Shown here piece after piece: positions 7,665 through 22,738 of a DNA stretch of 41,459 nt (position 1 is the stretch's first letter; each line of letters starts with the position of its first letter). Below the pieces are notes generated by a model, which saw nothing but the letters and a program-made list of their open reading frames with translations, did no database searches and was not told where the DNA came from. The DNA comes from a bacterium (GTDB lineage: Bacteria; Verrucomicrobiota; Verrucomicrobiia; Limisphaerales; UBA11358), in the NCBI GenBank assembly GCA_021813325.1, contig JAKALA010000034.1, positions 1 to 41,459 on the forward strand, given 5' to 3'. Made by a program: the position numbers and the translations under genes.

Positions 7665-7665
7665 A

Positions 7666-8523
7666 TCAGGCTTTGGCTTGAGCGGATAACTGTTTCTCGA
7701 TGCGGCAGTTTTCGGAGGCGCAGGCGAGGGATTTTTGTTCGAATTCGCGATAAGTCGCGAGCCGGTCCTGCAATTCGTCGAAATTGACCAGATGACCGTC
7801 GAATTCCGGACCGTCCACGCAGGCAAACTTGATTTCGTTGCCCAACGAAACCCGGCAGCCGCCGCACATGCCCGTGCCGTCAATCATCACTGGATTCAGG
7901 GAAACGATCGTATGCACGCCGAAGGTTTTCGTGAGGTTGGCCACCGCGCGCATCATCGGCACCGGGCCGACGGCGTAAACGATGTCCACCTTGTCGTTGG
8001 CCAAAATTTCCTTGGCCGCGTCGGTCACGAATCCTTTGCGGCCATAGCTGCCGTCATCCGTGCAAACGACCACCTGGCCGTAACGCTTCAGTTCCGGTTC
8101 AAAAATCACCCATTCTTTGGAGCGTCCGCCGATCACGCTCGTCACTCGCACGCCGCGTTGCTGCAGGCTTTGCGCGATGGGATGCACTACCGCCGTGCCA
8201 ACGCCGCCGCCAATGCACAGGGCGTGCCCGGACTCGATCATCTCGGTCGGATGCCCCAGCGGCCCGGCGACGTCGCGAATCGCATCGCCGACGTTCAAAG
8301 CCACCAGCTCATTGGTGCTTTTGCCGACGGCTTGGATGACCAGCGTGATGGTGCCGGTTTCGGGGTTGGAATCAGCGACCGTGAGCGGGATGCGCTCGGA
8401 ATTCTCCGCGAGGTGGACGATGGCAAATTGCCCTGCCTGCCGGATCTGGGCGATGCGCGGCGCTTGAACGTCCAACCGTGTGACGTTCGGACTCAAAGTT
8501 TGTTTGGCCAGGATACGATGCAT
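7666..8523 (-). CDS. FAD/NAD-binding [2Fe-2S] subunit, NfnA/SudB-like
   Basis: A 285-residue ferredoxin-NADP reductase-fold protein. The N-terminal FAD barrel has the ERIPLTVAD block, the nucleotide domain starts at ALCIGGGVGTAVVHPIAQSL, and the C-terminal [2Fe-2S] site shows C220, C223 and C235 in MCGGCRVSLGNEIKFACVDG, with Asp215 at the position that ligates the cluster in Nfn proteins. ATG at 8523 (MHRILAKQTLSPNV) matches the family start; an in-frame ATG at 8544 would add seven residues. The gene leads a two-gene operon with the GltD-like subunit. In Nfn the pair bifurcates electrons between NADPH, NAD+ and ferredoxin; a sulfide/polysulfide role is the alternative. Confidence 0.87.
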   Translation of the reverse strand: MHRILAKQTLSPNVTRLDVQAPRIAQIRQAGQFAIVHLAENSERIPLTVADSNPETGTITLVIQAVGKSTNELVALNVGDAIRDVAGPLGHPTEMIESGHALCIGGGVGTAVVHPIAQSLQQRGVRVTSVIGGRSKEWVIFEPELKRYGQVVVCTDDGSYGRKGFVTDAAKEILANDKVDIVYAVGPVPMMRAVANLTKTFGVHTIVSLNPVMIDGTGMCGGCRVSLGNEIKFACVDGPEFDGHLVNFDELQDRLATYREFEQKSLACASENCRIEKQLSAQAKA

Positions 8524-8716
8524 TGGTGACAGAAAATAACCCATCAGCGGCTTACGGCTGTTCGGGAATTGCCCAATGCTTGGCATATTTTGACTTGGCA
8601 AAAGGCTTGGGGAGAAACTCTGTGAAAATCGGGAAAAAGGCGGAATGTATTTTCTCGTTTTGTGCGATTTTTCCGGCCGTTGAGAAAGGTGCTTTTGTTT
8701 TGCTGGGGCTTGTTCC

Positions 8717-9856
8717 ATGATGCCTGACATGTTGAAGCGCACTCCACTTTTTTCTGCCCACCAAAAACTTGGCGGCAAGCTGATTGATTTTGGCGGTTGG
8801 GAAATGCCGGTCCAATATACCAGCATTACCGACGAGCACTTGGCGGTTCGCAACGCCGCCGGCATTTTTGACATTTCCCACATGGGCGAAGTCACCGTCA
8901 GCGGGCCGGGGGCAGTGGCTTTTCTGAACTCGGTTTTGACCAATGACATTAGCAAGCTGATCTCGGGTCAGGGACAATACACGCTGATGTGCCATGAGCA
9001 TGGCGGTGTGATTGACGACCTTTATGCTTATCGCCTCTCGGTGGATGTTTATTTCCTAGTCATTAACGCTTCACGGATTGAGGCGGATGTCGCTTGGTTG
9101 CAGGCGCAAGTGTCGAAATTTGCCGGTGGCGAAGTCAATTTGACGGACGCGTCGCATCATTACGCGGCGATTGCGGTTCAAGGGCCGCGAGTGAAGGAGT
9201 TTATTGATGCGTGTATTCCCGGCCCCTCGACTTCCGTGTTTTCCGTCGATAAAGTGACGACGCTCAAGAAAAATGAAATTGCCGGTTTTCATTTTGAAAC
9301 CAGCAATATTTTGGTCTCGCGCACGGGCTACACCGGCGAAGACGGTTTTGAAGTTCTTGGCATCGATTCAGCCATTCAGCATCTTTGGGATAAAATTCTC
9401 CAGGCTGGCCAGCCATTTGGAATCAAACCAGCCGGCCTGGGGGCGCGCGACACGTTGCGAACGGAAGTTTGTTATCCCCTTTACGGCCATGAGCTGGATG
9501 AGCAAACCACACCGATTGAGGCGGGCGTGGGATTTTTCGTAAAATTGGACAAGGGAGAATTCAACGGTCGTGCTGTGATGGCCGGGCAAAAAGCCAATGG
9601 AGTAAAAAAGAAGCTCGTTGCTTTCAAAATGACGGATAAATCGGCCCCGCCGCGTCCGCATTATGCGATTTTCGGGAATGGAGCGAACATTGGCATTGTG
9701 ACCAGCGGGACGCAGAGTCCTTCGTTAAATCAAGGGGTTGGCATGGGATTTGTGCCGCCCGCATTCGCCCAGCCGGACACCGCCATCGAAATCGAGATAC
9801 GCGGCAAACGCTATGGCGCCGTGGTCGTGCCCAAGCCGATTCTCAAGCTGACATGA
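8717..9856 (+). CDS. gcvT: Glycine cleavage system T protein (aminomethyltransferase)
   Basis: A 379-residue GcvT, which transfers the methylene group from aminomethyl-lipoyl GcvH to tetrahydrofolate and releases ammonia. Family blocks are LKRTPLFSAHQKLGGKLIDFGGWEMPVQY at the N-terminus, AGIFDISHMGEV, GQYTLMCHEHGGVIDDLYAYRL (folate-site Asp), SRTGYTGEDGFE and GLGARDTLRTEVCYPLYGHELDE. Three in-frame ATGs lie close together (8717, 8720, 8729), so the exact start is open by four residues. It is divergent from the Nfn-like operon across about 190 bp. Its partner gcvH lies 13 kb downstream on the other side of the complex I operon; gcvP is not in the window. Confidence 0.95.
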   Translation: MMPDMLKRTPLFSAHQKLGGKLIDFGGWEMPVQYTSITDEHLAVRNAAGIFDISHMGEVTVSGPGAVAFLNSVLTNDISKLISGQGQYTLMCHEHGGVIDDLYAYRLSVDVYFLVINASRIEADVAWLQAQVSKFAGGEVNLTDASHHYAAIAVQGPRVKEFIDACIPGPSTSVFSVDKVTTLKKNEIAGFHFETSNILVSRTGYTGEDGFEVLGIDSAIQHLWDKILQAGQPFGIKPAGLGARDTLRTEVCYPLYGHELDEQTTPIEAGVGFFVKLDKGEFNGRAVMAGQKANGVKKKLVAFKMTDKSAPPRPHYAIFGNGANIGIVTSGTQSPSLNQGVGMGFVPPAFAQPDTAIEIEIRGKRYGAVVVPKPILKLT

Positions 9857-10000: not shown

Positions 10001-10378
10001 ATGGAAACCAATCACAATTCGTATCTGGCGTTGTTTTTGCTGGCGCTCGTGGCGGTCGGATTCGCCCTGGCCCCGCTGGGAGCGGCGTGGTTGTGGGCGA
10101 AATTCTTCTCTCCCAACAAGCCGGGCAAGGACAAAAACGCCATCTACGAATGCGGTTTGGAATCCAAAGGCGACGCGTGGATTCACTTTCGTTCGGAATA
10201 TTACCTCTACGCGATCATCTTTTTGGTGTTTGATGTGGAAACGATCTTTCTCCTGCCCTTCGCCGTGTCATTTGGCGGTTTGTCCGTGGGCGCGTTTGTG
10301 GCGATGGTGGTATTTTTGGGGTTGCTCGTCGAAGGTCTGGTCTGGGCCTGGCGCAAAGGAATTTTAACCTGGAAATAA
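10001..10378 (+). CDS. nuoA: NADH-quinone oxidoreductase subunit A
   Basis: A 125-residue membrane subunit with three predicted helices (about residues 8-34, 66-86 and 92-116). The conserved loop KNAIYECGLESKGDAW carries the family cysteine, and FRSEYYLYAIIFLVFDVETIFLLP is the hallmark second-helix block with its acidic residues. It opens the complex I operon. The 144 bp gap to gcvT should hold the promoter, although no convincing -35/-10 pair stands out. Confidence 0.95.
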   Translation: METNHNSYLALFLLALVAVGFALAPLGAAWLWAKFFSPNKPGKDKNAIYECGLESKGDAWIHFRSEYYLYAIIFLVFDVETIFLLPFAVSFGGLSVGAFVAMVVFLGLLVEGLVWAWRKGILTWK

Positions 10379-10396
10379 CGCCGAACTGATTTGGTC

Positions 10397-11008
10397 ATGA
10401 TCGAAGAAGGCCTCAAAAACGAAATGCAGAAGCAAGGCGTGTATGTCACGTCGCTGCAGGAACTGTATAATTGGGGCCGGGCGAATTCCGTGTGGCCGCT
10501 GACGTTTGGTCTGGCCTGCTGTGCCATTGAAATGATTGCGGCTTCAATGTCTCGCTTTGATATTTCCCGCTTTGGCGCTGAAGTATTTCGTCCTTCGCCC
10601 CGGCAGGCAGATTTGATGATTGTGGCCGGCACGGTGACCAAGAAAATGGCTCCCATGGTGGTGCGGCTGTATAACCAAATGCCCGAGCCGAAATACGTGA
10701 TTGCCATGGGTGCCTGCGCGATTTCCGGCGGGCCGTTCAAGCAGGGGTATAACGTGCTCAAAGGTGTGGATCGCTATATTCCGGTGGATGTCGTGATTCC
10801 AGGATGTCCGCCGCGACCGGAAGCACTGTTGCATGCGCTGATTACGTTGCAGGAAAAGATATTGAACCAGAAACTCACGGGGCCGGATCGGCCGCGCCAT
10901 TTGCAGCCGGATGCGCCCAGTGAATTTCCGGTGCCGGAATACGGCAAACATGATCTCGAACCGCCGAACAATCCTCAAATCTGGCAGCCGCCGGTGATCA
11001 AGCGTTAA
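10397..11008 (+). CDS. nuoB: NADH-quinone oxidoreductase subunit B
   Basis: A 203-residue subunit that binds the N2 [4Fe-4S] cluster, the last electron carrier before quinone. All four ligands are visible: the tandem C41-C42 in [10 protein letters not shown]107 in [10 protein letters not shown] and C137 in [16 protein letters not shown] at 10397 is preferred to the TTG two codons upstream. It lies 18 bp after nuoA, and nuoC begins 3 bp after its stop. The C-terminus adds a Pro-rich tail of about 40 residues. Confidence 0.95.
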
Positions 11009-11011
11009 ACT

Positions 11012-11674
11012 GTGGAAACCCTCGAACAAATCAAGGCCCGCCTCGAAAAGGTGTTGCCACTGACAAAAATTGACATCGTGCCGAATGAATGTCCGGCCGG
11101 TGAAGCGTCTTTGTTGGTGGAAACAGCCCGCGCGTTGGAAGTGGCCCGGTTTCTCCGGGATGATGCCCAGTTGAAACTGGATTATTGTTCCAATGTCACG
11201 GGAGTTGACTGGCCGGAAGCCAAAATCAAAACCAAGGTTAAAAAGAAGGTTTTGGTTGAAGGGGTGGAGAAGGAAGTTGAGGAGGTTGTTGAGACGATTC
11301 GTTCCGGTTATCTCGAAGTCGTTTATCACCTGTATTCGCTGGAGTTGAAGCACGGCCCGGTGGTTTTGCGGCTGCGCACCGAAAACCGCTTGGACAAGAC
11401 GCAATTGCCGTCGTTCACGCCGGTCTGGCGCGGCGCGGAATTTCAGGAACGCGAAATTTACGATCTTTACGGTGTGATTTTCACTGGCCATCCCGACCTG
11501 CGCCGCATCTTGATGTGGGATGGTTTTGAAGGCTTTCCCATGCGCAAGGATTACGTGGCGCCCGATGACTATGAATATGAGCCGACGCCGCACGACGAAG
11601 TGCTGGAAGCGGCCAAGAAGCATTATCCGGTGGAAGCCAAACCCGATGAAGTGAAGGCGGAGGTAAAACCGTGA
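11012..11674 (+). CDS. nuoC: NADH-quinone oxidoreductase subunit C
   Basis: A 220-residue 30 kDa-type peripheral-arm subunit with the signature [36 protein letters not shown] and FPMRKDY. The start is GTG. An unusual Lys/Glu/Val-rich segment (about residues 70-95, [24 protein letters not shown]) is inserted before the conserved core, and the C-terminus is charged. The gene is separate from nuoD, unlike the fused E. coli nuoCD, and its TGA overlaps the GTG of nuoD. Confidence 0.93.
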
Positions 11675-12840
11675 ACACCTTTGCCATGCCGCCAAAAAGT
11701 TTTGAGGTCACGTCCAAACTGGATGCCGATGGTGCGCCCTTGGGCGAATTGCTTGAAGTCTCGATGGGACCGCATCACCCGTCCACCCACGGCGTGTTCC
11801 GCATGGACGTGACGCTGGATGGCGAAACGGTGGTCAAACTCAAGCCGGTGTTTGGTTATCTGCACCGAAATCACGAGAAGATTGGCGAAAATATTTCCTA
11901 TCTCGCCACGATGCCTTATACGGATCGGCTCGATTATTTCTGTTCGATGACCAACAACTGGGCCTACGCGCTCACCATCGAAAAATTGGCCGGGTTGCAG
12001 GTGCCTGAACGCGCCGAATACATCCGCGTCATCATGGCGGAATTGACCCGCCTGCAGAATCACACTTCGCTCATTGGTTTTTTTGTGCAGGACATGGGCG
12101 CGCTGGGCACGCCGTTGATGTATGCCTTCCGCGAACGTGAAAAAATCCTTGATCTATTCGAGGAAGTCAGCGGCGCCCGGCTCATGTGCAATTACATGCG
12201 CTTTGGTGGCGTGCGCGTGGATGTGAGCGACGACTGGATTGCCCGCACCAAAAAGATCGTCGCCGATTACGGCCGATTCCTCGACGAATTTGAGACGTTC
12301 CTGAACGAGAATGAAATCCTCCTGGGCCGCACCCAGGGCGTGGGGGTGATTTCAAAAGAACTCACCGTAAACGCCTCGATTTCAGGACCCCTGTTGCGCG
12401 CCGCTGGTGTCAATTACGACATCCGCAAGGTGGATAAATACGGCATTTACAGCCGGTTTGAGTTCAAGGTGCCGCTGGGCGAGCACAACGACGTTTACGA
12501 TCGTTACATGGTGCGCGTGCTGGAAATGCGCGAAAGCATCAAGATTTTGAACCAGTCTCTGGTTGGCATTCCTGCCGGCCCCATCATGGATCCAAAGGCG
12601 AAGCTGCGTGGTTTCCGGCCGAAAGCCGGCGAAGTCTATGGCCGCATTGAAGCGCCCAAAGGCGAGCTCGGTTTTTATGTCATCAGCGATGGCAGTCCGA
12701 ATCCGTATCGGTATCGCATTCGTCCGCCCAGTTATATCAACCTGACCGTGTTGGAAGATATGTGTCTGGGACAGAAAATTGCCGACGTCATCGTGATTCT
12801 CGGCAGCGTGGACATCGTGTTAGGAGAAGTTGATCGATAA
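11671..12840 (+). CDS. nuoD: NADH-quinone oxidoreductase subunit D
   Basis: A 389-residue 49 kDa-type subunit that forms the quinone pocket with NuoB. Conserved blocks are [14 protein letters not shown] (quinone-site histidines), [34 protein letters not shown] and the C-terminal [37 protein letters not shown]. It starts with GTG in a 4-base overlap with nuoC. Downstream, where nuoE, nuoF and nuoG or nuoG-H would often follow, there is instead a GxxExxY gene flanked by repeats. Confidence 0.95.
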
Positions 12841-12873: not shown

Positions 12874-13248
12874 ATGGCGCTGGAATTTGAAGAATTGACG
12901 GGAAAGATCATCGGCGCGGCGATCGAAGTGCATCGCCAGTTGGGGCCGGGGTTTATTGAGTCAATTTACGAGCACGCGCTGGTTTATGAGTTGCGCAAGC
13001 ACGGGCTGAAGGTCGAACAGCAGCTCGAAGTGTCGGTGTTTTATGCCGGGGCAGTGGAAGTCGGCAAGCATCGGCTGGATTTGCTGGTAGAAAATGAGAT
13101 CGTGATTGATCTCAAGGCCATCAGCGAATTGCATGACGTGCATTTTGCGATTGTGAAATCACAATTGCGCGCGGTGAAAAAGAAACACGGGCTGTTGTTG
13201 AATTTTGCGAAAGTGAAACTCGAAGCTAGGCGCGTGATAGCTGAATAA
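12874..13248 (+). CDS. GxxExxY family protein
   Basis: A 124-residue protein of the GxxExxY family (PDDEXK-like fold), whose function is unknown. The defining motif is G26-F-I-E29-S-I-Y32. The nuclease-like core shows HRLDLLVENEIVIDLKAI, with D69, D79 and K81 placed as in PD-(D/E)xK enzymes, followed by the usual VKSQLRAVKKKHGLLLNF ending. Family members are common and often multicopy in Planctomycetes, Verrucomicrobia and Bacteroidetes genomes. Here the gene interrupts the complex I operon between nuoD and nuoI and is bounded by inverted repeats, which suggests later insertion. It is in the operon direction, so it should be co-transcribed. Confidence 0.88.
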   Translation: MALEFEELTGKIIGAAIEVHRQLGPGFIESIYEHALVYELRKHGLKVEQQLEVSVFYAGAVEVGKHRLDLLVENEIVIDLKAISELHDVHFAIVKSQLRAVKKKHGLLLNFAKVKLEARRVIAE

Positions 13249-13397: not shown

Positions 13398-14042
13398 ATG
13401 CTCGGCGAGCAAATCATCAAAGGCATGGCGGTGACCGCCAAGAATTTCTTCGGGAGTTACGTCTCGAAGGAACGCCTCACCACCGTGCAATATCCCGAGG
13501 AACGCCTCACGCCGAAAGAAAACACCCGGCAATTTCCGTTCCTCGTTTATGATGGTGACGACGCGGAGAAAGGCCTGCGCTGTGTGGCCTGCCAGATCTG
13601 CGAGAAGGAATGTCCGCCCAAATGCATTTACATCGTCAAGAGCAAGGACAAGCGGGTTGATTACAAGGGCCAGCCGCAGGTGTATCCGGTCACCTTCGAC
13701 ATTGATATTTCCGTCTGCATGAGCTGTTCGATTTGTGTCGAGGTGTGCCCGTTTGAGTCCATCAAGATGGACACCGAATTTGAGTTGAGCAACGACAACC
13801 GGTTTGAAGGACTGCTGCTGACCAAGAAGGAACTGGCCAAGCCGAACGCGCATTATCACAAGGTTCATCCGCAGGACGCCCAGGATTCCGACGCCGTGCT
13901 CACCGCGGAAAAGGCCAAGGCTGAAGCCAAGGCAAAAGCCGCTGCGGAAGCCAAAGCCGACGCCGAGGCAAAAGCCAAAGCGGCTGCGACACCTGCCGCA
14001 CCAGCACCGGCGCCGAACACACCTCCTCCGCCAGCCAAATGA
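13398..14042 (+). CDS. nuoI: NADH-quinone oxidoreductase subunit I
   Basis: A 214-residue ferredoxin-like subunit that binds two [4Fe-4S] clusters (N6a/N6b). The first set is C62, C65, C68 and C72 in CVACQICEKECPPKC; the second starts at C106 in CMSCSICVEVCPFE. The last 50 or so residues form an Ala/Lys/Glu then Ala/Pro-rich low-complexity tail (AEAKAKAAAEAKADAEAKAK and so on, ending PAPNTPPPPAK) that canonical NuoI of about 160-180 residues lacks. It is the first gene after the GxxExxY cassette, and the order I-H is reversed relative to the usual H-I. Confidence 0.94.
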   Translation: MLGEQIIKGMAVTAKNFFGSYVSKERLTTVQYPEERLTPKENTRQFPFLVYDGDDAEKGLRCVACQICEKECPPKCIYIVKSKDKRVDYKGQPQVYPVTFDIDISVCMSCSICVEVCPFESIKMDTEFELSNDNRFEGLLLTKKELAKPNAHYHKVHPQDAQDSDAVLTAEKAKAEAKAKAAAEAKADAEAKAKAAATPAAPAPAPNTPPPPAK

Positions 14043-14056
14043 TCATAGGTTTTTAA

Positions 14057-15307
14057 ATGGTTGATAAAATCCATCAAGTTTTAGAGCACTTCCAGCGGCT
14101 GTCGCTGGCGGAGAAAGTGGATCAAATCTTCGTTACGCTGAAGCAGTTGATCATGGCCTGCGTGCCGGACAGCCTGCATTCCTTGGTGTCGGTGGTTTTG
14201 TCCATCGCGCTCATCATGATGGTTTTTCCAGGCGTTTTCGCCATTATCACGGTTGTCGAACGCAAGGCGCTGGGTCGCATCCAAAATCGTTTGGGACCTA
14301 ACCGCGTTGGTATTCCTTTCACCAATATCCGCTTGTGCGGTTTCGGCCAGTTCATTCCAGACGGCATCAAGGCGATCATCAAGGAAGACGTGGTGCCTTA
14401 CGCGGCCGATAAGGTGGTTCATTTCCTTGCGCCGGTGGTGATGCTCATTCCCGTGCTGCTGGCCTACGCGGTGCTGCCGTTCGGGCGCAACATGAGCGTG
14501 GCCAACTACGACGCGGGCGTGCTGTTTTTCTTCGCCGTTGGCGGCGCGGTGGAAGTTTCCGTTTTTATGGCCGGCTGGTCCAGCCGCAACAAATATTCGC
14601 TCCTCGGCGCCATGCGCGCCATCGCCCAAATGATCAGCTACGAAATTCCGCTGATCCTGTCGGCGGTGACAGTGATCATGATTGCCGGGTCGTTGAACAT
14701 GAATGAAATTGTCGCCCGGCAGAATGTTTACACGTTTGGCATCGCGCATTGGTATGTGCTCACGCCGTGGGGATTTGTAGGCTTTATTCTCTTCCTGATT
14801 TCGGCGCTGGCGGAATCCAATCGCTCGCCGTTTGATTTGCCGGAAGCGGAATCCGAAATCATTGCGGGCTATTTTACAGAATATTCCGGCTTCAAGTTTG
14901 CGCTCTTTTTCCTCGCGGAATATCTCGGCATGTTTGCGATCTGCACGCTGGGCGTCACGTTGTTCCTCGGCGGCTGGACGGCACCGGTTTCATTCCTGAC
15001 GTGGATTCCTTCGTGGGCCTGGTTCTTCGTCAAGATGATCAGCCTGGTATTTCTGTTTATTTGGATTCGCGGCACGCTGCCCCGTCTGCGCATGGATCAA
15101 CTGATGAATTTCGCCTGGAAGTTCATGCTGCCGCTGGCGCTGATCAACATCCTGGCTGCGGGCATCTGGCATTTCATGGGCACCAATGCCGGCTGGCAAC
15201 GCTGGCTCGTCTGCGGTGCGATTCTCGCCGCCGCCTATGTCGGGCTGGGACGCGGCCTGATGCACAACAAAAAACTCGGCAAACGCACCTATCGCTACGC
15301 GGAATAA
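14057..15307 (+). CDS. nuoH: NADH-quinone oxidoreductase subunit H
   Basis: A 416-residue membrane subunit linking the quinone site to the proton-pumping arm. Blocks include VVERKALGRIQNRLGPNRVGI (about residues 66-87), FIPDGIKAIIKEDVVP, SRNKYSLLGAMRAIAQMISYEIPL, ESNRSPFDLPEAESEIIAGYFTEYSG (acidic loop) and IRGTLPRLRMDQLMNFAWKFMLPLAL. It is longer than the E. coli protein (325), with an N-terminal amphipathic extension of about 45 residues before the first helix. It is 14 bp downstream of nuoI. Confidence 0.95.
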   Translation: MVDKIHQVLEHFQRLSLAEKVDQIFVTLKQLIMACVPDSLHSLVSVVLSIALIMMVFPGVFAIITVVERKALGRIQNRLGPNRVGIPFTNIRLCGFGQFIPDGIKAIIKEDVVPYAADKVVHFLAPVVMLIPVLLAYAVLPFGRNMSVANYDAGVLFFFAVGGAVEVSVFMAGWSSRNKYSLLGAMRAIAQMISYEIPLILSAVTVIMIAGSLNMNEIVARQNVYTFGIAHWYVLTPWGFVGFILFLISALAESNRSPFDLPEAESEIIAGYFTEYSGFKFALFFLAEYLGMFAICTLGVTLFLGGWTAPVSFLTWIPSWAWFFVKMISLVFLFIWIRGTLPRLRMDQLMNFAWKFMLPLALINILAAGIWHFMGTNAGWQRWLVCGAILAAAYVGLGRGLMHNKKLGKRTYRYAE

Positions 15308-15310
15308 ACC

Positions 15311-15829
15311 ATGTCACTGCCATTTCTCATAACTGCCGTCGTTACGCTGTTTGCCGCTGCCGCTGCGATGAGCCTGCGTAATCTCGTCCACTGCGCGTTG
15401 TCGTTTATCATCGTTTTTGCCGGACTGGCGGCCATGTATTTGCAACTGGACGCCCAATTCGTTGGCTTCGCGCAGATCCTGGTTTATGTCGGGGCGGTGG
15501 CCATTCTGATTGTATTCGCGATTTTGCTGACCCGCGCTGGAGAAACTCCCAACCAGGCAGTCCTCGCGCCGGGCTGGTTCTATGGAATCATTGTTGCCGC
15601 GACCGTTTTCACCATGCTGGGCTGGTCGGTTTTGAACAGCAAGGCGCTGCCTTCGGATCAATCCGAAGCGCCGGTCGCCACGGTCAAAGGGATTGGTGAT
15701 GTGTTGATGAACAAATACGTTTTGCCGCTGGAACTGATCGGATTGTTGCTGACGGCCGCCATGATCGGCGCGGTGGTCATTGCCATGAAAGAAAGCCCCA
15801 AAACGAACGAGGCCGGGAGGAAATCATGA
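15311..15829 (+). CDS. nuoJ: NADH-quinone oxidoreductase subunit J
   Basis: A 172-residue protein with five hydrophobic helices. The third carries the family block FAQILVYVGAVAILIVFAILLTR, which includes the pi-bulge helix of complex I. The stop TGA overlaps the ATG of nuoK, so the two are translationally coupled. Confidence 0.93.
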   Translation: MSLPFLITAVVTLFAAAAAMSLRNLVHCALSFIIVFAGLAAMYLQLDAQFVGFAQILVYVGAVAILIVFAILLTRAGETPNQAVLAPGWFYGIIVAATVFTMLGWSVLNSKALPSDQSEAPVATVKGIGDVLMNKYVLPLELIGLLLTAAMIGAVVIAMKESPKTNEAGRKS

Positions 15830-16137
15830 CGCCACTGCAAATTTGCCTGATCATCTCTGCCCTTTTATTCGCCATCGGACTTGCCGGTGCCGTGACGCGG
15901 CGCAATGCCATCCTCGCTTTGGTGGGCGTGGAACTGATGCTGAATGCGGCAAATCTGAACTTCATCGCCTTCTGGCGCTACGGCGCTCACCCGGAGGCAT
16001 TGACCGGAGTTCTGTTCGTGATTTTTTCGATTGCCATTGCGGCGGCGGAAGCGGCGGTAGGACTTGCGCTCATCATTGCCATCTATCGTCATTACAAAAC
16101 ATCCAACTTGGATGAAGTGAAGGAATTGAAAGGATGA
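15826..16137 (+). CDS. nuoK: NADH-quinone oxidoreductase subunit K
   Basis: A 103-residue three-helix membrane subunit. Two buried glutamates of the proton relay are visible, in ALVGVELMLNAANLNF (helix 2) and AIAAAEAAVGLALIIAIYRHY (helix 3). It overlaps both neighbours by four bases. Confidence 0.94.
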   Translation: MTPLQICLIISALLFAIGLAGAVTRRNAILALVGVELMLNAANLNFIAFWRYGAHPEALTGVLFVIFSIAIAAAEAAVGLALIIAIYRHYKTSNLDEVKELKG

Positions 16138-18245
16138 TCTGGATTGTCAAATATCTCTGGCTGATCCCGGTGCTGCCGTTGGTGGCAGCCGGTATCATTG
16201 CGGTGAACAAACAGCCCAAGCGCAAACTCGCGGCGTCGCTGGCCATCGGCTCCATGGCCATGGGTTTTCTGCTCTCGCTTTGTGCGTTTGCGGCCACGCT
16301 CGGTCATCATGGCGAAGGTGCGTTCCGCGAAACGTTCAGTTTCAACTGGATTCAGTTCGGCGGCCAATGGATGAGTTTGGGCTGGGTGCTGGATCCGCTG
16401 ACGGCGGTCATGCTGATGATGGTGACGTTTGTCGGCATGCTGATCTTCATCTTCAGTATCGGCTACATGGCGCACGACCAGAATTTCATGCGGTTCTTCT
16501 GTTTTCTGGCGCTGTTTGCATCGGGCATGTTGGGCGTGGTCATCGCCAACAATTTGTTATTGCTGTTCATTTCTTGGGAAATCGTCGGTCTGACCAGCTA
16601 TCTGCTCATCGGGTTCTGGTATCATAAACCCAGCGCGGCGGCGGCGGCGAAGAAAGCCTTTATCACCACGCGCATTGGCGACTTGGGATTATTGATTGGC
16701 ATGGTTTGGCTCTATGCTGAAACGGGAACCTTGAATTTTTACGATCACGGTCATGGCTGTCTCGAAGCGACGGCCCTCTCGCAGATGCTGACGCACCTTA
16801 CGATTGGTGGAATGTGTGTGACGACCGCCATCGGCCTGCTGATTTTCCTTGGCGCGGTTGGCAAATCCGGCCAGTTGCCGCTGCATGTGTGGTTGCCGGA
16901 CGCGATGGAAGGTCCGACGCCGGTTTCAGCTTTGATTCACGCCGCCACGATGGTGGCCGCGGGGGTGTTTCTGGTGGCGCGCGTTTATCCGTTGATGGCC
17001 GCCGGCGCTCACCCGATGGAACATGGCACCCCGGTGACAACCGCGTTGACCGTGGTGACTTGGATTGGCGCCATCACCGCGCTGTTTGCCGCGACCATTG
17101 CCGTGGCGCAAAACGACATTAAACGCATTCTCGCTTATTCCACGGTTTCGCAGCTCGGTTACATGATGCTGGGCCTGGGCGTTGGTGGTGTGGCGGTGGG
17201 GATGTTTCATTTGATCACCCATGCCTGTTTCAAGGCGCTGTTGTTCCTCGGTTCCGGCTCGGTCATTCATGGCTGTCACGAGGAGCAGGACGTGCGTAAA
17301 ATGGGCGGACTGAAAAAATTCATGCCCGTGACGTTCGTGGTTTATGCCATCGGCATGCTGGCGCTTTCCGGCTTTCCGCTGTTGTTCTCCGGCTTTTGGA
17401 GCAAGGATGAAATTTTGCATCAGGCCAAAAATTGGCCGGTTTCGCACCTGCCGTTTTACTTCGGCGTCATCGGCGCGCTGTTCACGGCGTTTTACATGAC
17501 GCGGCAGATGGGGTTGGTTTTCTTTGGTGAATACCGTGGCCATCAGGAGGAATCCGCCCATGGCCATTCCGCGCATTCCTCCCATTCCCATTCCCCGGCT
17601 CACGGCCATGATCCGCACGAAAGCCCCGTAGTCATGACCGCTCCTTTGATCATCCTCGCGGGGCTTGCCGTTTTATTGGGCCTGGTGGGAACGCCTGCCT
17701 GGCCGTGGTTTGATGGCTACCTGACCGGTGAAGCATTTAAATTCGATCTCAGCAAACTCACCGAGAGCGGCACCCTCACACTGATGGTTTCCTCGGCTGT
17801 CGTGGTGTTCTTCGGCCTTGGCCTGGGTTGGTTCCTCTATGGCAAACGCCAGCGCAAAACCGCCGGAGAAAAGGACGTGCTGGAAGCGGCGCAGCCGCTG
17901 GTTTTCAAAGTGCTCCAGAATAAATACTACGTTGATGAACTATACGAGGCCACCGTCATCCGTTTCAACGCGTTTGCCGCGTGGTTCTGTAATTTTTGCG
18001 ATGAATGGATTTTTGGCGGTGTGGTTCTGGGGGTGAAATATGTCACCCTGGGGCTGGCTTGGCTGTATCGCCTGACGGACGAATATTTCGTGAATCTCGG
18101 TTTCGACGCTGGTTGCGACACGTTGCGCAAGGGCGGCGGCGGACTTTCCAAATTGCATGGCGGCCGCGTGCAGGCGTATTTGCGCATCATCGGCGTGGCC
18201 TTGGTGTTGTTGATCCTGTTCCTGATCTGGGGGCACAAAGCATGA
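16134..18245 (+). CDS. nuoL: NADH-quinone oxidoreductase subunit L, extended
   Basis: A 703-residue distal antiporter-like proton-pumping subunit, long for the family (E. coli about 613). Channel residues are intact: Glu in FISWEIVGLTSYLLIGFW, Lys and His in LPLHVWLPDAMEGPTPVSALIHAATMVAAG, and Lys in IKRILAYSTVSQLGYMMLGLGVG. A His-rich cytosolic or periplasmic loop lies at about residues 467-500 (GHQEESAHGHSAHSSHSHSP and on). The C-terminal segment from YYVDELYEATV to the last helix (QAYLRIIGVALVLLILFLIW) is about 80 residues, roughly 30 longer than my recollection of the E. coli lateral-helix region. This fits a complex that must span an extra NuoM. The gene overlaps nuoK and nuoM by ATGA. 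Confidence 0.94.
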   Translation: MIWIVKYLWLIPVLPLVAAGIIAVNKQPKRKLAASLAIGSMAMGFLLSLCAFAATLGHHGEGAFRETFSFNWIQFGGQWMSLGWVLDPLTAVMLMMVTFVGMLIFIFSIGYMAHDQNFMRFFCFLALFASGMLGVVIANNLLLLFISWEIVGLTSYLLIGFWYHKPSAAAAAKKAFITTRIGDLGLLIGMVWLYAETGTLNFYDHGHGCLEATALSQMLTHLTIGGMCVTTAIGLLIFLGAVGKSGQLPLHVWLPDAMEGPTPVSALIHAATMVAAGVFLVARVYPLMAAGAHPMEHGTPVTTALTVVTWIGAITALFAATIAVAQNDIKRILAYSTVSQLGYMMLGLGVGGVAVGMFHLITHACFKALLFLGSGSVIHGCHEEQDVRKMGGLKKFMPVTFVVYAIGMLALSGFPLLFSGFWSKDEILHQAKNWPVSHLPFYFGVIGALFTAFYMTRQMGLVFFGEYRGHQEESAHGHSAHSSHSHSPAHGHDPHESPVVMTAPLIILAGLAVLLGLVGTPAWPWFDGYLTGEAFKFDLSKLTESGTLTLMVSSAVVVFFGLGLGWFLYGKRQRKTAGEKDVLEAAQPLVFKVLQNKYYVDELYEATVIRFNAFAAWFCNFCDEWIFGGVVLGVKYVTLGLAWLYRLTDEYFVNLGFDAGCDTLRKGGGGLSKLHGGRVQAYLRIIGVALVLLILFLIWGHKA

Positions 18246-19777
18246 ATCATTGGTTGACCATACTCACTCTCATTCCGTTTCTCGGCGGTGTCATTATTGC
18301 CGGGCTGGGTTCCGGACGCCAAGCTTTGGCGCGCGGCCTGGCGCTGGTGGCCAGCCTGATCTCGCTGGGCGGCGCGGTGTGCCTGTGGATGCATTTTAAT
18401 TCGGCCTCGGGCGAACTCCAATTTGTCGAGCGAGTCGCTTGGGTGAAATCACTCGGCATCGAATATTTTCTCGGTGTGGACGGCCTTGGCCTGCTGATGG
18501 TGACCTTGACTGCCCTGGTCACGCCCCTGGCGATTCTGGCCTCATGGAATGTCAATGACCGGCCACAGGTTTTTCACGCGCTGGTGCTGTGGTTGCAGGC
18601 CGGGTTGTTTGGCACGTTCACGGCGCTGAACTTTTTCCATTGGTTCCTGTTCTGGGAACTCGGCCTGATCCCGGCGTTCTTCCTCGTCAAACTGTGGGGC
18701 GGACCCAAGCGCGGCCCGGCAGCGACACAGTTCTTCATCTACACCATGGTGGGCAGCGTGGCCTTGCTGTTGAGCTTTTTGGCGATCCGCTATGCCACGG
18801 GCAGTTTTGATTTTATTAAACTCGCCGACATGGCCAAGGACGGCACGCTCCAAAGTTCGCTGGCGGCGCACTTCGGCTGGAAAAATATCGGGATGATTGT
18901 GTTCTTTGGCGCGTTCCTCGGGTTCGCGGTGAAGGTGCCGGTAATTCCGTTTCACACGTGGTTGCCCGCCGCGTATTCGGAAGCTCCCAGTCCGGTAACC
19001 ATGTTGCTCACGGGGGTCATGTCCAAAATGGGCGTTTACGGATTCCTGCGCATTTTGCTGCCGATTTTCCCGGAACAAATCCGGCAAGCGCTGCCGTTGA
19101 TGTTGATTCTCTCGGTGGCCACCATCGTTCTTTCGGCTTGCGCGGCGTTTGCCCAGCGCGATCTGAAACGCATTCTGGCGTATTCCTCGATCAACCATCT
19201 GGGCTACTGCCTGCTGGCGATGTTCGCGGCGATGAGCGTCGGTGCCGGTGTGAATCAACCGGAAATTCAAAGAGCCGCCGCGCTGAACGGCGTCTTGCTG
19301 CAAATGTTCAACCACGGACTTACCGCCTCGACCTTGTTCCTGTTTGTGGCCCTGATCGAACGCCGCAGCGGTGGTCTGCGCGGTCTCGATGATTTTGGCG
19401 GCATCCGCAAGATTGTTCCCGTCTTTACCGGATTAATGGGCATCGCGCTGTTCTCTTCGCTGGGCCTGCCAGGTTTGAACGGGTTCGTGGGGGAATTCCT
19501 GGTTTTCAAAGGGGTGTTCCCGTTGGCGCCCTGGGCGGCGGCGATTTCCACCCTGGGTATTCTGGTCACGGCCATTTTCATTTTGACAGTGATTCAACGT
19601 GTTTTCTGCGGCCCGCTCAACGAGCGCTGGGCGCAAATGCCCGATCTGACCACAGCGGAACGTTTTCTCGTGGTGCCCAGCATTGCCCTGATGTTTGCGC
19701 TCGGCATCTGGCCTCAATTCATCCTGGGTGTCACGGATGCGACCGTCATGAAGCTGTTGCAACAACTCAATTTCTAA
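18242..19777 (+). CDS. nuoM: NADH-quinone oxidoreductase subunit M (first copy)
   Basis: A 511-residue antiporter-like membrane subunit. Key channel positions are present: Glu in FHWFLFWELGLIPAFFLVKLWG, Lys in FHTWLPAAYSEAPSPVTMLLTGVMSKMGVYG and Lys in QRDLKRILAYSSINHLGYCLLAM. The start is ATG in a 4-base overlap with the nuoL stop; the frame is open further upstream but only as a shadow of nuoL. A second, distinct NuoM follows after a single base. Confidence 0.94.
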   Translation: MNHWLTILTLIPFLGGVIIAGLGSGRQALARGLALVASLISLGGAVCLWMHFNSASGELQFVERVAWVKSLGIEYFLGVDGLGLLMVTLTALVTPLAILASWNVNDRPQVFHALVLWLQAGLFGTFTALNFFHWFLFWELGLIPAFFLVKLWGGPKRGPAATQFFIYTMVGSVALLLSFLAIRYATGSFDFIKLADMAKDGTLQSSLAAHFGWKNIGMIVFFGAFLGFAVKVPVIPFHTWLPAAYSEAPSPVTMLLTGVMSKMGVYGFLRILLPIFPEQIRQALPLMLILSVATIVLSACAAFAQRDLKRILAYSSINHLGYCLLAMFAAMSVGAGVNQPEIQRAAALNGVLLQMFNHGLTASTLFLFVALIERRSGGLRGLDDFGGIRKIVPVFTGLMGIALFSSLGLPGLNGFVGEFLVFKGVFPLAPWAAAISTLGILVTAIFILTVIQRVFCGPLNERWAQMPDLTTAERFLVVPSIALMFALGIWPQFILGVTDATVMKLLQQLNF

Positions 19778-19778
19778 A

Positions 19779-21281
19779 ATGCTGGCCTGGACCATTTATA
19801 TTTCATTTATCGGCGTGCTGGTGCTGATGCTCCTGCCGCGTGACAACGCGAAGGCGGCGCGCGCGGTGGCGTTGCTCACGGCTTTGGCGGGATGCGTGGT
19901 GGCGATTATTGGCGCGATGCAGCAGCCGCATCCGGGCGAGGTGACCACGATCGTCAAAACTGATTGGATTCCGCAAATCGGGGCAACGTATTATCTCGCG
20001 GCGGATGGCATCAGTCTGGTGCTGGTGGTGCTCACCGGCCTTGCGGCGGTGACGGGAATTTTATTTTCCTGGAACATTGAAAAGCGAACCAAGGAATTTT
20101 TCGCGTTTTACCTGGCGTTGATTGGCGGCGTGTATGGCGTTTTTCTGAGCTTTGATTTGCTGCTGCTGTTCGTGTTTTACGAGCTGACGATCATTCCAAA
20201 ATACTTCCTCATCGCCCGCTGGGGCAGCACCCGCAAGGAATATGGCGCGATGAAACTGGCGCTGTATTCGTTTGTCGGCAGCCACTTGGTGCTGATCGGC
20301 ATGATCGCCGCGTGGGTGGTGGCAAAACATCAACTCGGCCATGCTTCGTTGGATTTGATGGAGCTTTCGAAAGTCACTTTCTCGGCGAGCTTCCAGCATT
20401 GGATGTTTCCGCTGGTATTTATCGGGTTCGCCATTCTGGCCGGCATGTGGCCGTTTCACACGTGGGCGCCCACCGGTCACGTGGCGGCGCCAACCGCCGG
20501 TTCCATGTTGCTCGCCGGCGTGGTGATGAAGCTTGGCGCCTATGGCTGCTTGCGGGTGGCCATGGGGCTGTTCCCGGAAGGCATGCGGGAATGGCAATGG
20601 GCGGTTGCCGCGCTGGCGGTGGTCGGCATCGTTTATGGGGCTGGCGTGGCGCTGGTGCAACGCGACTTTAAATTTGTCATCGGCTATTCCAGCGTCAGCC
20701 ACATGGGTTTTGTGCTGCTGGGGCTGGCGACGCTCAACACCATCGGCCTGGATGGCGCGGTGTTGCAGATGTTCTCGCACGGCATCATCGCCGGACTGCT
20801 GTTCGGTGTGGTGGGCCGGATGGTTTATGACCGGACGCACACACGGGATTTCAACGATCTTGAACGGATGGACGTTGGCAAGTTGCTGCCGTTTGCCGGA
20901 ATCACGTTTGTTATCGCCGGCGTGGCTTCGATGGGATTGCCGGGGTTCAGCGGATTTGTGGCGGAATTGCAAGTGTTGATGGGCGCGTGGGCCGTCTTCC
21001 CGAAAATAACCATGCTGGCCGGCGTCGGCATCGTGGTGGGCGTCGCCTACACGTTGCGCGCGGTGCAAAAAGCTTTTTATTCTGATGCAAAACCGGACGG
21101 CCATGGCGGACAGCACGATCATCCGCTGGAGCCGATTTCGGTTCCGGAACGGGTTGGTGCCGTGATCCTCATTGGTGCGTCACTTGTGATCGGGCTTTTT
21201 CCAACTCTGCTGATGAACTGGATTGAACCTTGTTTCCAATCGCCGCTGTTTGAACGCCTGTTGAAAGGAGGTTCGCTGTGA
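19779..21281 (+). CDS. NADH-quinone oxidoreductase subunit M (second copy)
   Basis: A 500-residue NuoM paralogue clearly different in sequence from its upstream neighbour, so not a recent tandem duplication. It keeps the functional positions: Glu in LLFVFYELTIIPKYFLIARWG, Lys in FHTWAPTGHVAAPTAGSMLLAGVVMKLGAYG and Lys in QRDFKFVIGYSSVSHMGFVLLG. A short His-rich loop (GHGGQHDHP) precedes the last helix. With NuoL, the first NuoM and NuoN this makes four antiporter-like subunits in one complex, a composition known for some complex I types with duplicated NuoM. It overlaps the nuoN start by GTGA. Confidence 0.93.
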   Translation: MLAWTIYISFIGVLVLMLLPRDNAKAARAVALLTALAGCVVAIIGAMQQPHPGEVTTIVKTDWIPQIGATYYLAADGISLVLVVLTGLAAVTGILFSWNIEKRTKEFFAFYLALIGGVYGVFLSFDLLLLFVFYELTIIPKYFLIARWGSTRKEYGAMKLALYSFVGSHLVLIGMIAAWVVAKHQLGHASLDLMELSKVTFSASFQHWMFPLVFIGFAILAGMWPFHTWAPTGHVAAPTAGSMLLAGVVMKLGAYGCLRVAMGLFPEGMREWQWAVAALAVVGIVYGAGVALVQRDFKFVIGYSSVSHMGFVLLGLATLNTIGLDGAVLQMFSHGIIAGLLFGVVGRMVYDRTHTRDFNDLERMDVGKLLPFAGITFVIAGVASMGLPGFSGFVAELQVLMGAWAVFPKITMLAGVGIVVGVAYTLRAVQKAFYSDAKPDGHGGQHDHPLEPISVPERVGAVILIGASLVIGLFPTLLMNWIEPCFQSPLFERLLKGGSL

Positions 21282-22738
21282 ACTATCTCCAGATGCTTCA
21301 ACTGGCCGCGCCGGAAACCATTGTAACCATCACGGTGCTGGCAGTTCTGGGTGTGGATTTGACTTTGCTGCGGGGCAAATCCGTGTCAACGCGGTTTCAT
21401 GTCGGTGCGGTTGTTTCGATTCTGGGGTGCGCGATGGCCGGTTGGTTTGCGCTGGCGCGCCATGAAGAATTTAATTTGCTGAACGGCATTCTCGTCGTCA
21501 ATCCGGTCACGGATTTTGTGAAGTGCGCCCTTTTGATCCTCACCATTTTCACCGTGATGATTTCGGTGACGGGCAAATACACCGAGCACGCGGGCGAATA
21601 TCTCTCCATTGTGCTGCTGGCGACGATCGGTTTGATGTTTCTGGTCAGTGCCGAGGATTTGTTGATTATTTTCATTGCGCTGGAACTGGCGAGCCTTTCG
21701 CTCTACATCCTCACCGCGTTCAACAAACACAACGCCCGTGCAGCGGAGGCGGCCTTGAAATATTTTCTGTTTGGTGGCATGTCCGCGGCGTTCCTGCTGT
21801 TTGGCTTCAGTCTGCTCTATGGCATGTCGGGTTCAACGAATTTGACGGAGATTGCGCGCAGTTTGCAGGGCCGGGGAATGGATCCGCTATTGCTGGTGGC
21901 CATTGTCACCACGGTCATTGGTTTTGGTTTCAAAGTGGCGGCGGTGCCGTTCCATCTTTGGGCGCCGGATGCCTATGAAGGGGCGCCGACACCGAGTGCG
22001 GCATTTATTGGCGCCGGTTCCAAGGTGGCGAGTTTTTACATCGTGGCCAAAATTTTCACGCTCGCCTTTGCCGGAGCGGAGGGCAGTGCGGTCTGGCACG
22101 GCTATGTGGCCGGCTGGACCCCCACCATCGCGGTGGTGGCGGCGCTGTCGATGGTGCTGGGAAATCTCACGGCCATTGTCCAGTCCAGCGTCAAACGCCT
22201 GCTGGCCTACTCGGCGATTGCGCACGCGGGTTACATGTTGCTCGGCGTGCTGGCCCATACCTCTGCCAGCAACAGCGCGTTGATGTTTTATGTCATTACC
22301 TACGCGTTGACCACGATCGGCGCGTTTGGTGTGGTGGCGGTGGTGGAGAGCGCCACGGGCAGCGATCGTCTGGACAATTTCGCCGGATTGAGCCGCCGCG
22401 CTCCGGGGCTTTCGTTGTGTATGCTGGTTTTTCTGCTGTCGCTGGGTGGCATTCCGCCGCTGGCGGGCTTTATCGGAAAATTCTTTCTGTTCAGTGCCGT
22501 GGTCAATATGGATGCGCAAAATTTGGGTTTGCTCTGGCTGGTCATTCTGGCGGTCGCCATGAGCGCGGTCTCCTTCTACTACTACCTGCGTGTGTTGAAA
22601 CAGGTCTATGTGCAAGATGCGGCGGCGGAAGCTCCGGCCATCATAGTTCCGCCAATGACCATGCTTGCTTTGGCCTTGCTGGCGGCCTTGGTGATTGTGC
22701 TGGGTTGCGCGCCCAGCCTGTTGATCAGCCACTTGTAA
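21278..22738 (+). CDS. nuoN: NADH-quinone oxidoreductase subunit N
   Basis: A 486-residue antiporter-like subunit with about 14 helices. Visible blocks are IIFIALELASLSLYILTAF (channel Glu), VPFHLWAPDAYEGAPTPSAAFIGAGSKVASFY (Lys), VKRLLAYSAIAHAGYMLLGVLA and SLGGIPPLAGFIGKFFLFSA. The start codon is GTG. It is the last subunit gene of the operon. The 115 bp before gcvH holds only a weak inverted repeat (around 22747-22767) without a T run, so transcription may continue into gcvH. Confidence 0.95.
   Translation: MNYLQMLQLAAPETIVTITVLAVLGVDLTLLRGKSVSTRFHVGAVVSILGCAMAGWFALARHEEFNLLNGILVVNPVTDFVKCALLILTIFTVMISVTGKYTEHAGEYLSIVLLATIGLMFLVSAEDLLIIFIALELASLSLYILTAFNKHNARAAEAALKYFLFGGMSAAFLLFGFSLLYGMSGSTNLTEIARSLQGRGMDPLLLVAIVTTVIGFGFKVAAVPFHLWAPDAYEGAPTPSAAFIGAGSKVASFYIVAKIFTLAFAGAEGSAVWHGYVAGWTPTIAVVAALSMVLGNLTAIVQSSVKRLLAYSAIAHAGYMLLGVLAHTSASNSALMFYVITYALTTIGAFGVVAVVESATGSDRLDNFAGLSRRAPGLSLCMLVFLLSLGGIPPLAGFIGKFFLFSAVVNMDAQNLGLLWLVILAVAMSAVSFYYYLRVLKQVYVQDAAAEAPAIIVPPMTMLALALLAALVIVLGCAPSLLISHL

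Follow-up and report, generated by a model that had tools for sequence, protein, structure and literature searches.

The stretch of DNA analysed here (the window, 41,459 nucleotides, contig C19:1-41459, JAKALA010000034.1) belongs to a Limisphaerales bacterium of the Verrucomicrobiota (GCA_021813325.1), whose genome of 4.28 Mb lies in 123 contigs and is 95% complete. It carries a nuo gene cluster with two different nuoM genes, M1 and M2, in one cassette, and a NuoL whose lateral helix is 25 residues longer than that of the canonical NuoL of the same genome. The cluster most likely (at a probability of roughly 75%) encodes a complex I of the two-M (2M) type, with four antiporter-like subunits, a donor other than NADH, likely ferredoxin, and a yield of up to five protons. 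The 2M design is already known, and the cluster is a well-supported member of it; no claim is made that Verrucomicrobia were unknown to carry such a complex. As far as checked, three findings are new: the nearly constant step of 25 residues in NuoL, the origin of M1 and M2 from separate ancestors, and the pattern of lysines in M2. Each bears, in a specific and testable way, on the residues and the spacing that complex I really needs.

In ordinary complex I, the lateral helix of NuoL runs along L, M and N. In the complex proposed here, the membrane arm would contain four antiporter-like subunits, in the probable order L-M1-M2-N, on an 11-subunit core without the NADH module, and the lateral helix, longer by ~37 Å (25 residues at 1.5 Å per residue), would reach past one more subunit. 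The most likely electron source is a donor of low potential, for instance reduced ferredoxin, from which the electrons would pass through NuoI and NuoB to quinone. The energy may drive one proton per antiporter-like subunit and one in the E-channel, thus up to five per two electrons, and the complex could also run in reverse. The fourth subunit would have been acquired from a different NuoM lineage, and not made by duplicating NuoM in place.

Two NuoM genes and a longer lateral helix

The two nuoM genes lie between nuoL and nuoN, and both products score above the NDH_I_M cut-off (Table 1). The genes are closely packed: L and M1 overlap in ATGA, M2 begins directly 3' of the stop codon of M1, and the last bases of M2 are shared with N. 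A preliminary description, made from the letters of the sequence, had noticed two strongly different NuoM subunits and, between the anchor motif and the last helix of NuoL, about 80 residues instead of 45-50. Both observations hold. Over 480 aligned residues, M1 shares 32.5% identity with M2, and the lateral-helix span, counted between two fixed anchors (D of DELYE and G of G-R-x-Q), is 76 residues in the window NuoL, 51 in the genome's canonical NuoL and 47 in that of Escherichia coli.

By alignment, the 25 extra residues are located inside the lateral helix; a position outside it would have spoken against the preliminary description. The canonical NuoL, encoded on contig C59, shows no comparable insertion when aligned to Thermus Nqo12 and E. 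coli NuoL. AlphaFold2, run on 37 sequences, predicts a single helix for the region with a mean predicted local distance difference test (pLDDT) of 76.4; the block confidence is 76-86 at residues 601-650 and falls to 59 and 49 at 651-670, so that the last third of the helix is unsure. The model fits E. coli NuoL with a Z of ~40 and a root-mean-square deviation of 2.7-2.9 Å where the alignment ends at residue 620-621, and less well where it continues into the lateral helix. In a structure search with the model, all 50 matches listed are apparently NuoL, ND5 or NdhF, judging by title and chain. The segment directly before the insertion aligns with E. coli P564-N566, a contact with NuoM according to the available text of PMC3274701; hence, the extra length would be placed between the NuoM contact and the NuoN side.

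A genome scan with an alignment of 13 M2 sequences provided the comparison, the best 80 of 460 relatives being the 80 named loci. They span 4.5-22 kb, many ended by contig ends, and nuoA and nuoN are both seen in 26. In 77 loci, M1 is found 5' of M2; the remaining three have an M2 that starts at locus positions 32, 115 and 1520. The nearest named records are mostly metagenome-assembled genomes (MAGs) of Verrucomicrobia subdivision 3, Limisphaerales or Pedosphaera; no paper pairing Pedosphaera with NuoM was found in the literature searched. Acidobacterial loci (Granulicella, Paracidobacterium, Edaphobacter and others) contain the same cassette as the window, with an M2 64-66% identical to its own. 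Seven further records (L051, L070, L080, L084, L094, L098 and L104) have an M2 at 66-68% identity, and because they carry such an M2, their names (Proteobacteria, Klebsiella pneumoniae or Akkermansia muciniphila MAG) are doubtful. Among 288 sampled genomes of the phylum, 14 other than the source genome, every one from the same class, encode an M2-like protein with 55-61% identity; of the remaining matches listed, one reaches 47% and none of the others exceeds 40%. Six of these places were fetched: three show L-M-M-N, one L-M-M, one M2-N (L132), and one, the 47% match (L134), a single M.

The helix alignment was composed of NuoL of at least 580 residues from the loci, with those of E. coli and of the genome's canonical cluster; shorter NuoL were excluded, and distinctness was judged by the last 250 residues. 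Three loci scored as one-M, with a helix of 76 residues (L046, L067 and L098), were regrouped as 2M, because they do contain an M2, truncated at or close to the end of the locus, and L125 (L only, helix of 51) was placed in neither group. The span is 76 residues in 79 of the 80 distinct 2M NuoL and 77 in the last, a growth of 25 and 26 residues, respectively, over the genome's canonical NuoL. The 16 distinct single-M NuoL, that of E. coli among them, all have a span of 47-52. Since the 2M NuoL form one clade (eight rows in the tree), the association between insertion and two M genes represents few events, perhaps one, and not 80. NuoL has additional length outside the helix too, for example in a loop rich in His that precedes HESP: between FWSKDE and HESP, 2M NuoL have 51-100 residues, compared to 50-55 in 15 of the 16 single-M NuoL and 77 in the remaining one.

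An internal duplication of the lateral helix is not claimed. The best self-match, at offset 26 (region of DEWIFGG and DEYFVNLGF), is suggestive only: it is equalled by 172 of 2000 pattern-preserving shuffles at offsets 12-44 and by 102 of 5000 at offsets 22-29. The amphipathic phase was not used as support either. Arithmetically, 25 residues make about seven helical turns, but the direction of the hydrophobic moment drifts, from ~254-308 degrees before the insertion to 343-20 in its first half and 123-149 from residue 649 in the window, and from ~284-331 to 65-118 degrees in the canonical NuoL.

Ancestry and channel residues of M1 and M2

M1 is 35.9% and M2 35.1% identical to E. coli NuoM; at 32.5%, the two are no closer to each other than to this distant relative. 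In a 76-row tree of NuoM with L, N, Mrp and Hyf subunits, 51 NuoM rows form a single branch (support 100/100) apart from MrpA, MrpD and HyfB/D/F, so neither M groups with Mrp or hydrogenase subunits, and the window NuoL groups with NuoL. Within the NuoM branch, 18 M1 rows constitute one group (100/99) and 18 M2 rows another (100/99). A 45-row tree, with further NuoM from named plasmid records and a thin sampling of NuoM from other phyla, places M2 with the canonical NuoM of Bacteroides, Prevotella and Verrucomicrobia (100/100), and M1 with those of Mycobacterium avium, Pseudonocardia and a Paracoccus plasmid (96/93). A joint clade of M1 and M2 has a log-likelihood lower by 76.5 and is rejected by the approximately unbiased (AU) test (p 0.000136). 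The old duplication put forward in the preliminary description thus finds no support as worded; the rejection argues for the recruitment of another, distantly related NuoM into the cassette rather than for a duplication in place.

In the sampled tree, the ancestors of M1 and M2 belong to different NuoM lineages; since then, the two genes appear to have been inherited together. The branching of the M1 and M2 trees is broadly similar. The M1 and the M2 of Acidobacteria are each placed among Limisphaerales rows, beside L025 (weakly for M1 in the 45-row tree, 93/67). This pattern suggests a transfer of the cassette as a unit between Verrucomicrobia and Acidobacteria. The L and N trees, whose backbone lacks resolution, do not settle the origin of the cassette; the AU test does not reject a topology that keeps the 2M rows together with the canonical ones of Bacteroidetes and Verrucomicrobia (p 0.376 for N and 0.206 for L). 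An apparent M1-M2 fusion in L028, an open reading frame (ORF) of 955 residues, is really an out-of-frame 5' extension.

The channel Glu and Lys residues, which both NuoM copies had been said to keep, are complete in M1 only. The window M1 has E139, K231 in transmembrane helix (TM) 7, K262 in TM8 and E418 in TM12. Residue counts mostly exclude NuoM ORFs of 450 residues or less; the M2 count was made without L134, a single M whose best match is M2, and the canonical count without L034 (E. coli). In E. coli numbering, E144 and E407 are present in all 88 distinct M1 and K234 and K265 in 87 each, the fragmented gene of L082 giving gaps at two key positions. In the window M2, E135, K251 and E396 are retained, whereas the position of the TM7 lysine is occupied by Leu220. 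The equivalents of E144, K265 and E407 are found in all 93 distinct M2, and the equivalent of K234 in none (92 Leu, one Met); three histidines are kept in M2 as well. In place of the TM7 lysine, all 93 carry a lysine in TM5 (Lys141 in the window, the position of E. coli M150), six residues after the channel Glu135. This TM5 lysine is absent from the 88 M1, from 14 distinct canonical NuoM of the order, from two of Bacteroidetes and from eight other NuoM.

The TM7 lysine, regarded as essential, is also missing in all 14 distinct canonical NuoM of the order, among them the genome's own (L009:16091-17653), and in the Bacteroides and Prevotella rows (L137 and L140), each of these being the only NuoM of its cluster. 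It is present in the eight other NuoM compared. The missing lysine therefore also concerns the ordinary complex I of the sampled relatives in the order and of the two sampled Bacteroidetes. No earlier notice of a NuoM without it was recognised in the available text of the literature searched. In the other antiporter-like subunits, the residues scored are retained: NuoL keeps E144, D178, K229, H254, H338, K342 and K399 in 86 of 86 rows, and NuoN keeps E133, K158, K217, K247 and K395 in 94 of 94 (E. coli numbering), all five of them in the window.

A hybrid arm of two distant NuoM lineages, in which M1 is standard and M2, from the Bacteroidetes/Verrucomicrobia line, lacks the TM7 lysine and has gained the one in TM5, is conceivable, although less than an even bet. 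Should M2 pump, it would show that another helix can host a rebuilt form of the Glu-Lys switch, which is thought to be essential in antiporter-like subunits, and that an additional pump can be acquired from outside rather than by duplication. The available text of PMC7419157 indicates that the TM12 residue is Glu in NuoM and Lys in the other antiporter-like subunits, and that it may make NuoM work in antiphase; the arm proposed here would have the pattern K-E-E-K, with two of each kind.

Electron donor and alternative readings

No match to nuoE, nuoF or nuoG was obtained in any of the 80 named loci, nor in 26 sequences added to them, which comprise another 25 loci of the 2M type and the whole window, and both canonical control loci match all three. 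The cluster, consequently, has no NADH site of its own. The genome possesses a canonical nuo cluster on C59 with nuoE (by match at L009:4433-4942), nuoF and nuoG, so that two complex I forms coexist. Three POR_N (2-oxoacid:ferredoxin oxidoreductase) matches in the same genome make it probable that reduced ferredoxin is produced. The midpoint potentials are about -420 to -500 mV for ferredoxin, -320 mV for NADH and about -80 mV for menaquinone. For five protons, ferredoxin would leave 136-168 mV per proton and NADH only ~96 mV, assuming menaquinone.

Several points weigh against a ferredoxin-driven complex with four pumps, and they are given here with the alternatives they favor. The four subunits may assemble with M2 as a spacer or regulator that does not pump, its TM5-TM7 Glu/Lys pair being broken, and four protons would then be translocated. 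The lysine missing from all distinct M2 is the one whose mutation in E. coli NuoM (K234) leads to loss of function, according to the available text of PMC3046159; hence, M2 may not pump in the standard way. M2 retains, however, the TM5 Glu, the TM8 Lys, the TM12 Glu and the three histidines, it has the conserved TM5 lysine instead, and the sole NuoM of the order's canonical clusters lacks the TM7 lysine as well. A silent M2 is considered unlikely.

A second alternative, of similarly low probability, keeps NADH as donor: the 2M complex would be an NADH dehydrogenase that borrows NuoE, NuoF and NuoG from the canonical complex or from a separate diaphorase. Three NuoF-family loci exist elsewhere in the genome, which makes an NADH supply through a shared module possible. 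Besides the canonical genes, there is a separate NuoE-NuoF-HoxU-like set and a further NuoF-family protein, presumably RnfC/PduS-like (L011:488-3372 and L013:1426-2796), apart from both complex I clusters. A separate NuoF has been proposed for the Nitrospira 2M complex in the available text of PMC6606698. The constant absence of the three genes from 2M loci argues against such borrowing, and the available text of PMC9038741 considers a link to ferredoxin possible for an archaeal two-M complex I that has no E, F or G. A genome of the same genus (G008) contains a 2M NuoD and neither a canonical NuoD nor a NuoF match; at 90% completeness and 7% contamination, this is a weak case. Two other genomes of the genus (G004 and G017) give no NuoF nor any NuoD match, yet canonical-type L or N are listed for them, which indicates that missing genes in these genomes can be real gaps.

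Lateral-helix insertions also occur in other complex I forms of Manganitrophaceae, and the available text of PMC9040806 does not credit complexes I_1 and I_2, which have them, with extra pump subunits; an insertion alone need, thus, not mean a fourth pump. That M1 and M2 are alternative subunits, one per complex, and the long helix a neutral peculiarity of one NuoL lineage would agree with this, with their low identity and different ancestry, and with an association that may rest on a single event in the one NuoL clade, but it is quite improbable, as the insertion accompanies two M genes without exception (80 of 80 distinct NuoL versus 0 of 16), M1, M2 and N lie end to end in the window, and the M1 and M2 trees branch broadly alike. 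One locus does not conform to the cassette: in L132 (G224:C14), M2 (555338-556774) is followed by N without adjoining L and M1. Another M-like match is located elsewhere on the same contig.

Known systems and the gene cluster

The 2M complex I type was reportedly published by Chadwick et al. in 2018 (ISME J). The window agrees with this type in both traits, which the preliminary description had already seen together: a second NuoM in one nuo cassette, between nuoL and nuoN, with both M subunits being NuoM and not Mrp or hydrogenase subunits, and an insertion inside the NuoL lateral helix, of 25 residues here and of about 26 in the type. The 2M and related complexes are treated in PMC6606698, PMC9040806, PMC7117926, PMC11636273, PMC12342949, PMC9038741 and PMC7419157, from whose available text the following likenesses are drawn; the 2M sequences compared are those of Verrucomicrobia and Acidobacteria.

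The insertion of Manganitrophaceae MrpD2 is 26 residues long, and that of Nitrospira NuoL is similar in length and position (PMC9040806). An unusual complex I with a duplicated nuoM, for which expression is reported, belongs to Acidobacterium capsulatum (PMC11636273) and is likened to the window by description only. The Nitrospira 2M complex I of clade 3 (PMC6606698) likewise has two NuoM, a lengthened NuoL and no nuoE or nuoF in its cluster; its layout, without nuoH and with an enlarged nuoG, differs from that of the window, where nuoH is present and nuoG absent. The Chloroflexi type (PMC7117926) has a fused nuoCD and nuoBCDI apart from the rest, whereas C and D are separate here and stand in one cluster with H to N. 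The archaeal complex I of Nitrososphaerales and Angelarchaeales (PMC9038741), likened to the window by description only, also has no E, F and G, has a duplicated M, and is suggested to use ferredoxin as donor. The Green complex I of rhizobia (in PMC9040806) shares a fourth antiporter-like subunit with the window, but two MrpD-like subunits replace NuoL, in contrast to the true NuoL found here.

The complex I genes are all on the + strand, between 10001 and 22738, in the order nuoA, B, C, D, a PDDEXK_3 ORF, nuoI, H, J, K, L, M1, M2 and N (Table 1).

Table 1. Genes and NuoL features of the 2M cluster, in positions of the window.
Feature	Position	Strand	Evidence
nuoA	10001..10378	+	Pfam Oxidored_q4 7.9e-32
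nuoB	10391..11008	+	Pfam Oxidored_q6 3.3e-30
nuoC, separate from nuoD	11012..11674	+	Pfam Complex1_30kDa 1.3e-37
nuoD	11671..12840	+	Pfam Complex1_49kDa 2.8e-91; GPHHPSTHG motif in sequence
PDDEXK_3 ORF, not a complex I subunit, between nuoD and nuoI	12874..13248	+	Pfam PF13366 4.7e-35
nuoI	13398..14042	+	Pfam Fer4_7; E. coli NuoI match; two CxxCxxCxxxCP motifs
nuoH	14057..15307	+	Pfam NADHdh 2.4e-110
nuoJ	15311..15829	+	NCBIfam NuoJ models, best 110 bits, under the cut-off of 154
nuoK	15826..16137	+	NCBIfam NuoK models; one above cut-off (104 vs 57 bits)
nuoL, 703 aa, lengthened lateral helix	16134..18245	+	TIGR01974 (NDH_I_L) 624 bits, cut-off 407.5
NuoL predicted continuous lateral helix, aa 597-671	17922..18146	+	AlphaFold2; low confidence from ~aa 651
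NuoL lateral-helix insertion, 25 residues, ~aa 637-661	18042..18116	+	alignment with own canonical NuoL; exact ends alignment-dependent
nuoM1, 511 aa	18242..19777	+	TIGR01972 (NDH_I_M) 478 bits, curated NCBI cut-off 263.8
nuoM2, 500 aa	19779..21281	+	TIGR01972 (NDH_I_M) 452 bits, curated NCBI cut-off 263.8
nuoN	21278..22738	+	TIGR01770 397 bits, cut-off 332.6

The cysteine motifs of NuoB are taken to be of the N2 type, and the C-terminal tail of NuoI is long and rich in Ala, Lys and Pro. On the - strand, NfnB- and NfnA-like genes (6240-8955) are located beside gcvT. NfnAB was dropped as a functional partner, and its adjacency was not used, as no NfnA or NfnB match was present in the 4-10 kb upstream-side stretches of six relatives.

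A further complex-I-related cluster is found on contig C32 of the same genome (L010:6995-16416). It contains two adjoining HyfB-like subunits, 59.6% identical and each ending in a GR-Q motif like that of NuoL, in addition to HyfC- and HyfF-like proteins. It is probably not a [NiFe] hydrogenase, because its large subunit is devoid of any CxxC motif.

The PDDEXK_3 ORF of the window is presumably of the GxxExxY type. Similar ORFs are present in the 2M clusters of L014/L043, L038 and L051, with no match in most others, and an ORF resembling PDDEXK_3 by eye is situated at L013:1124-1429 of the same genome.

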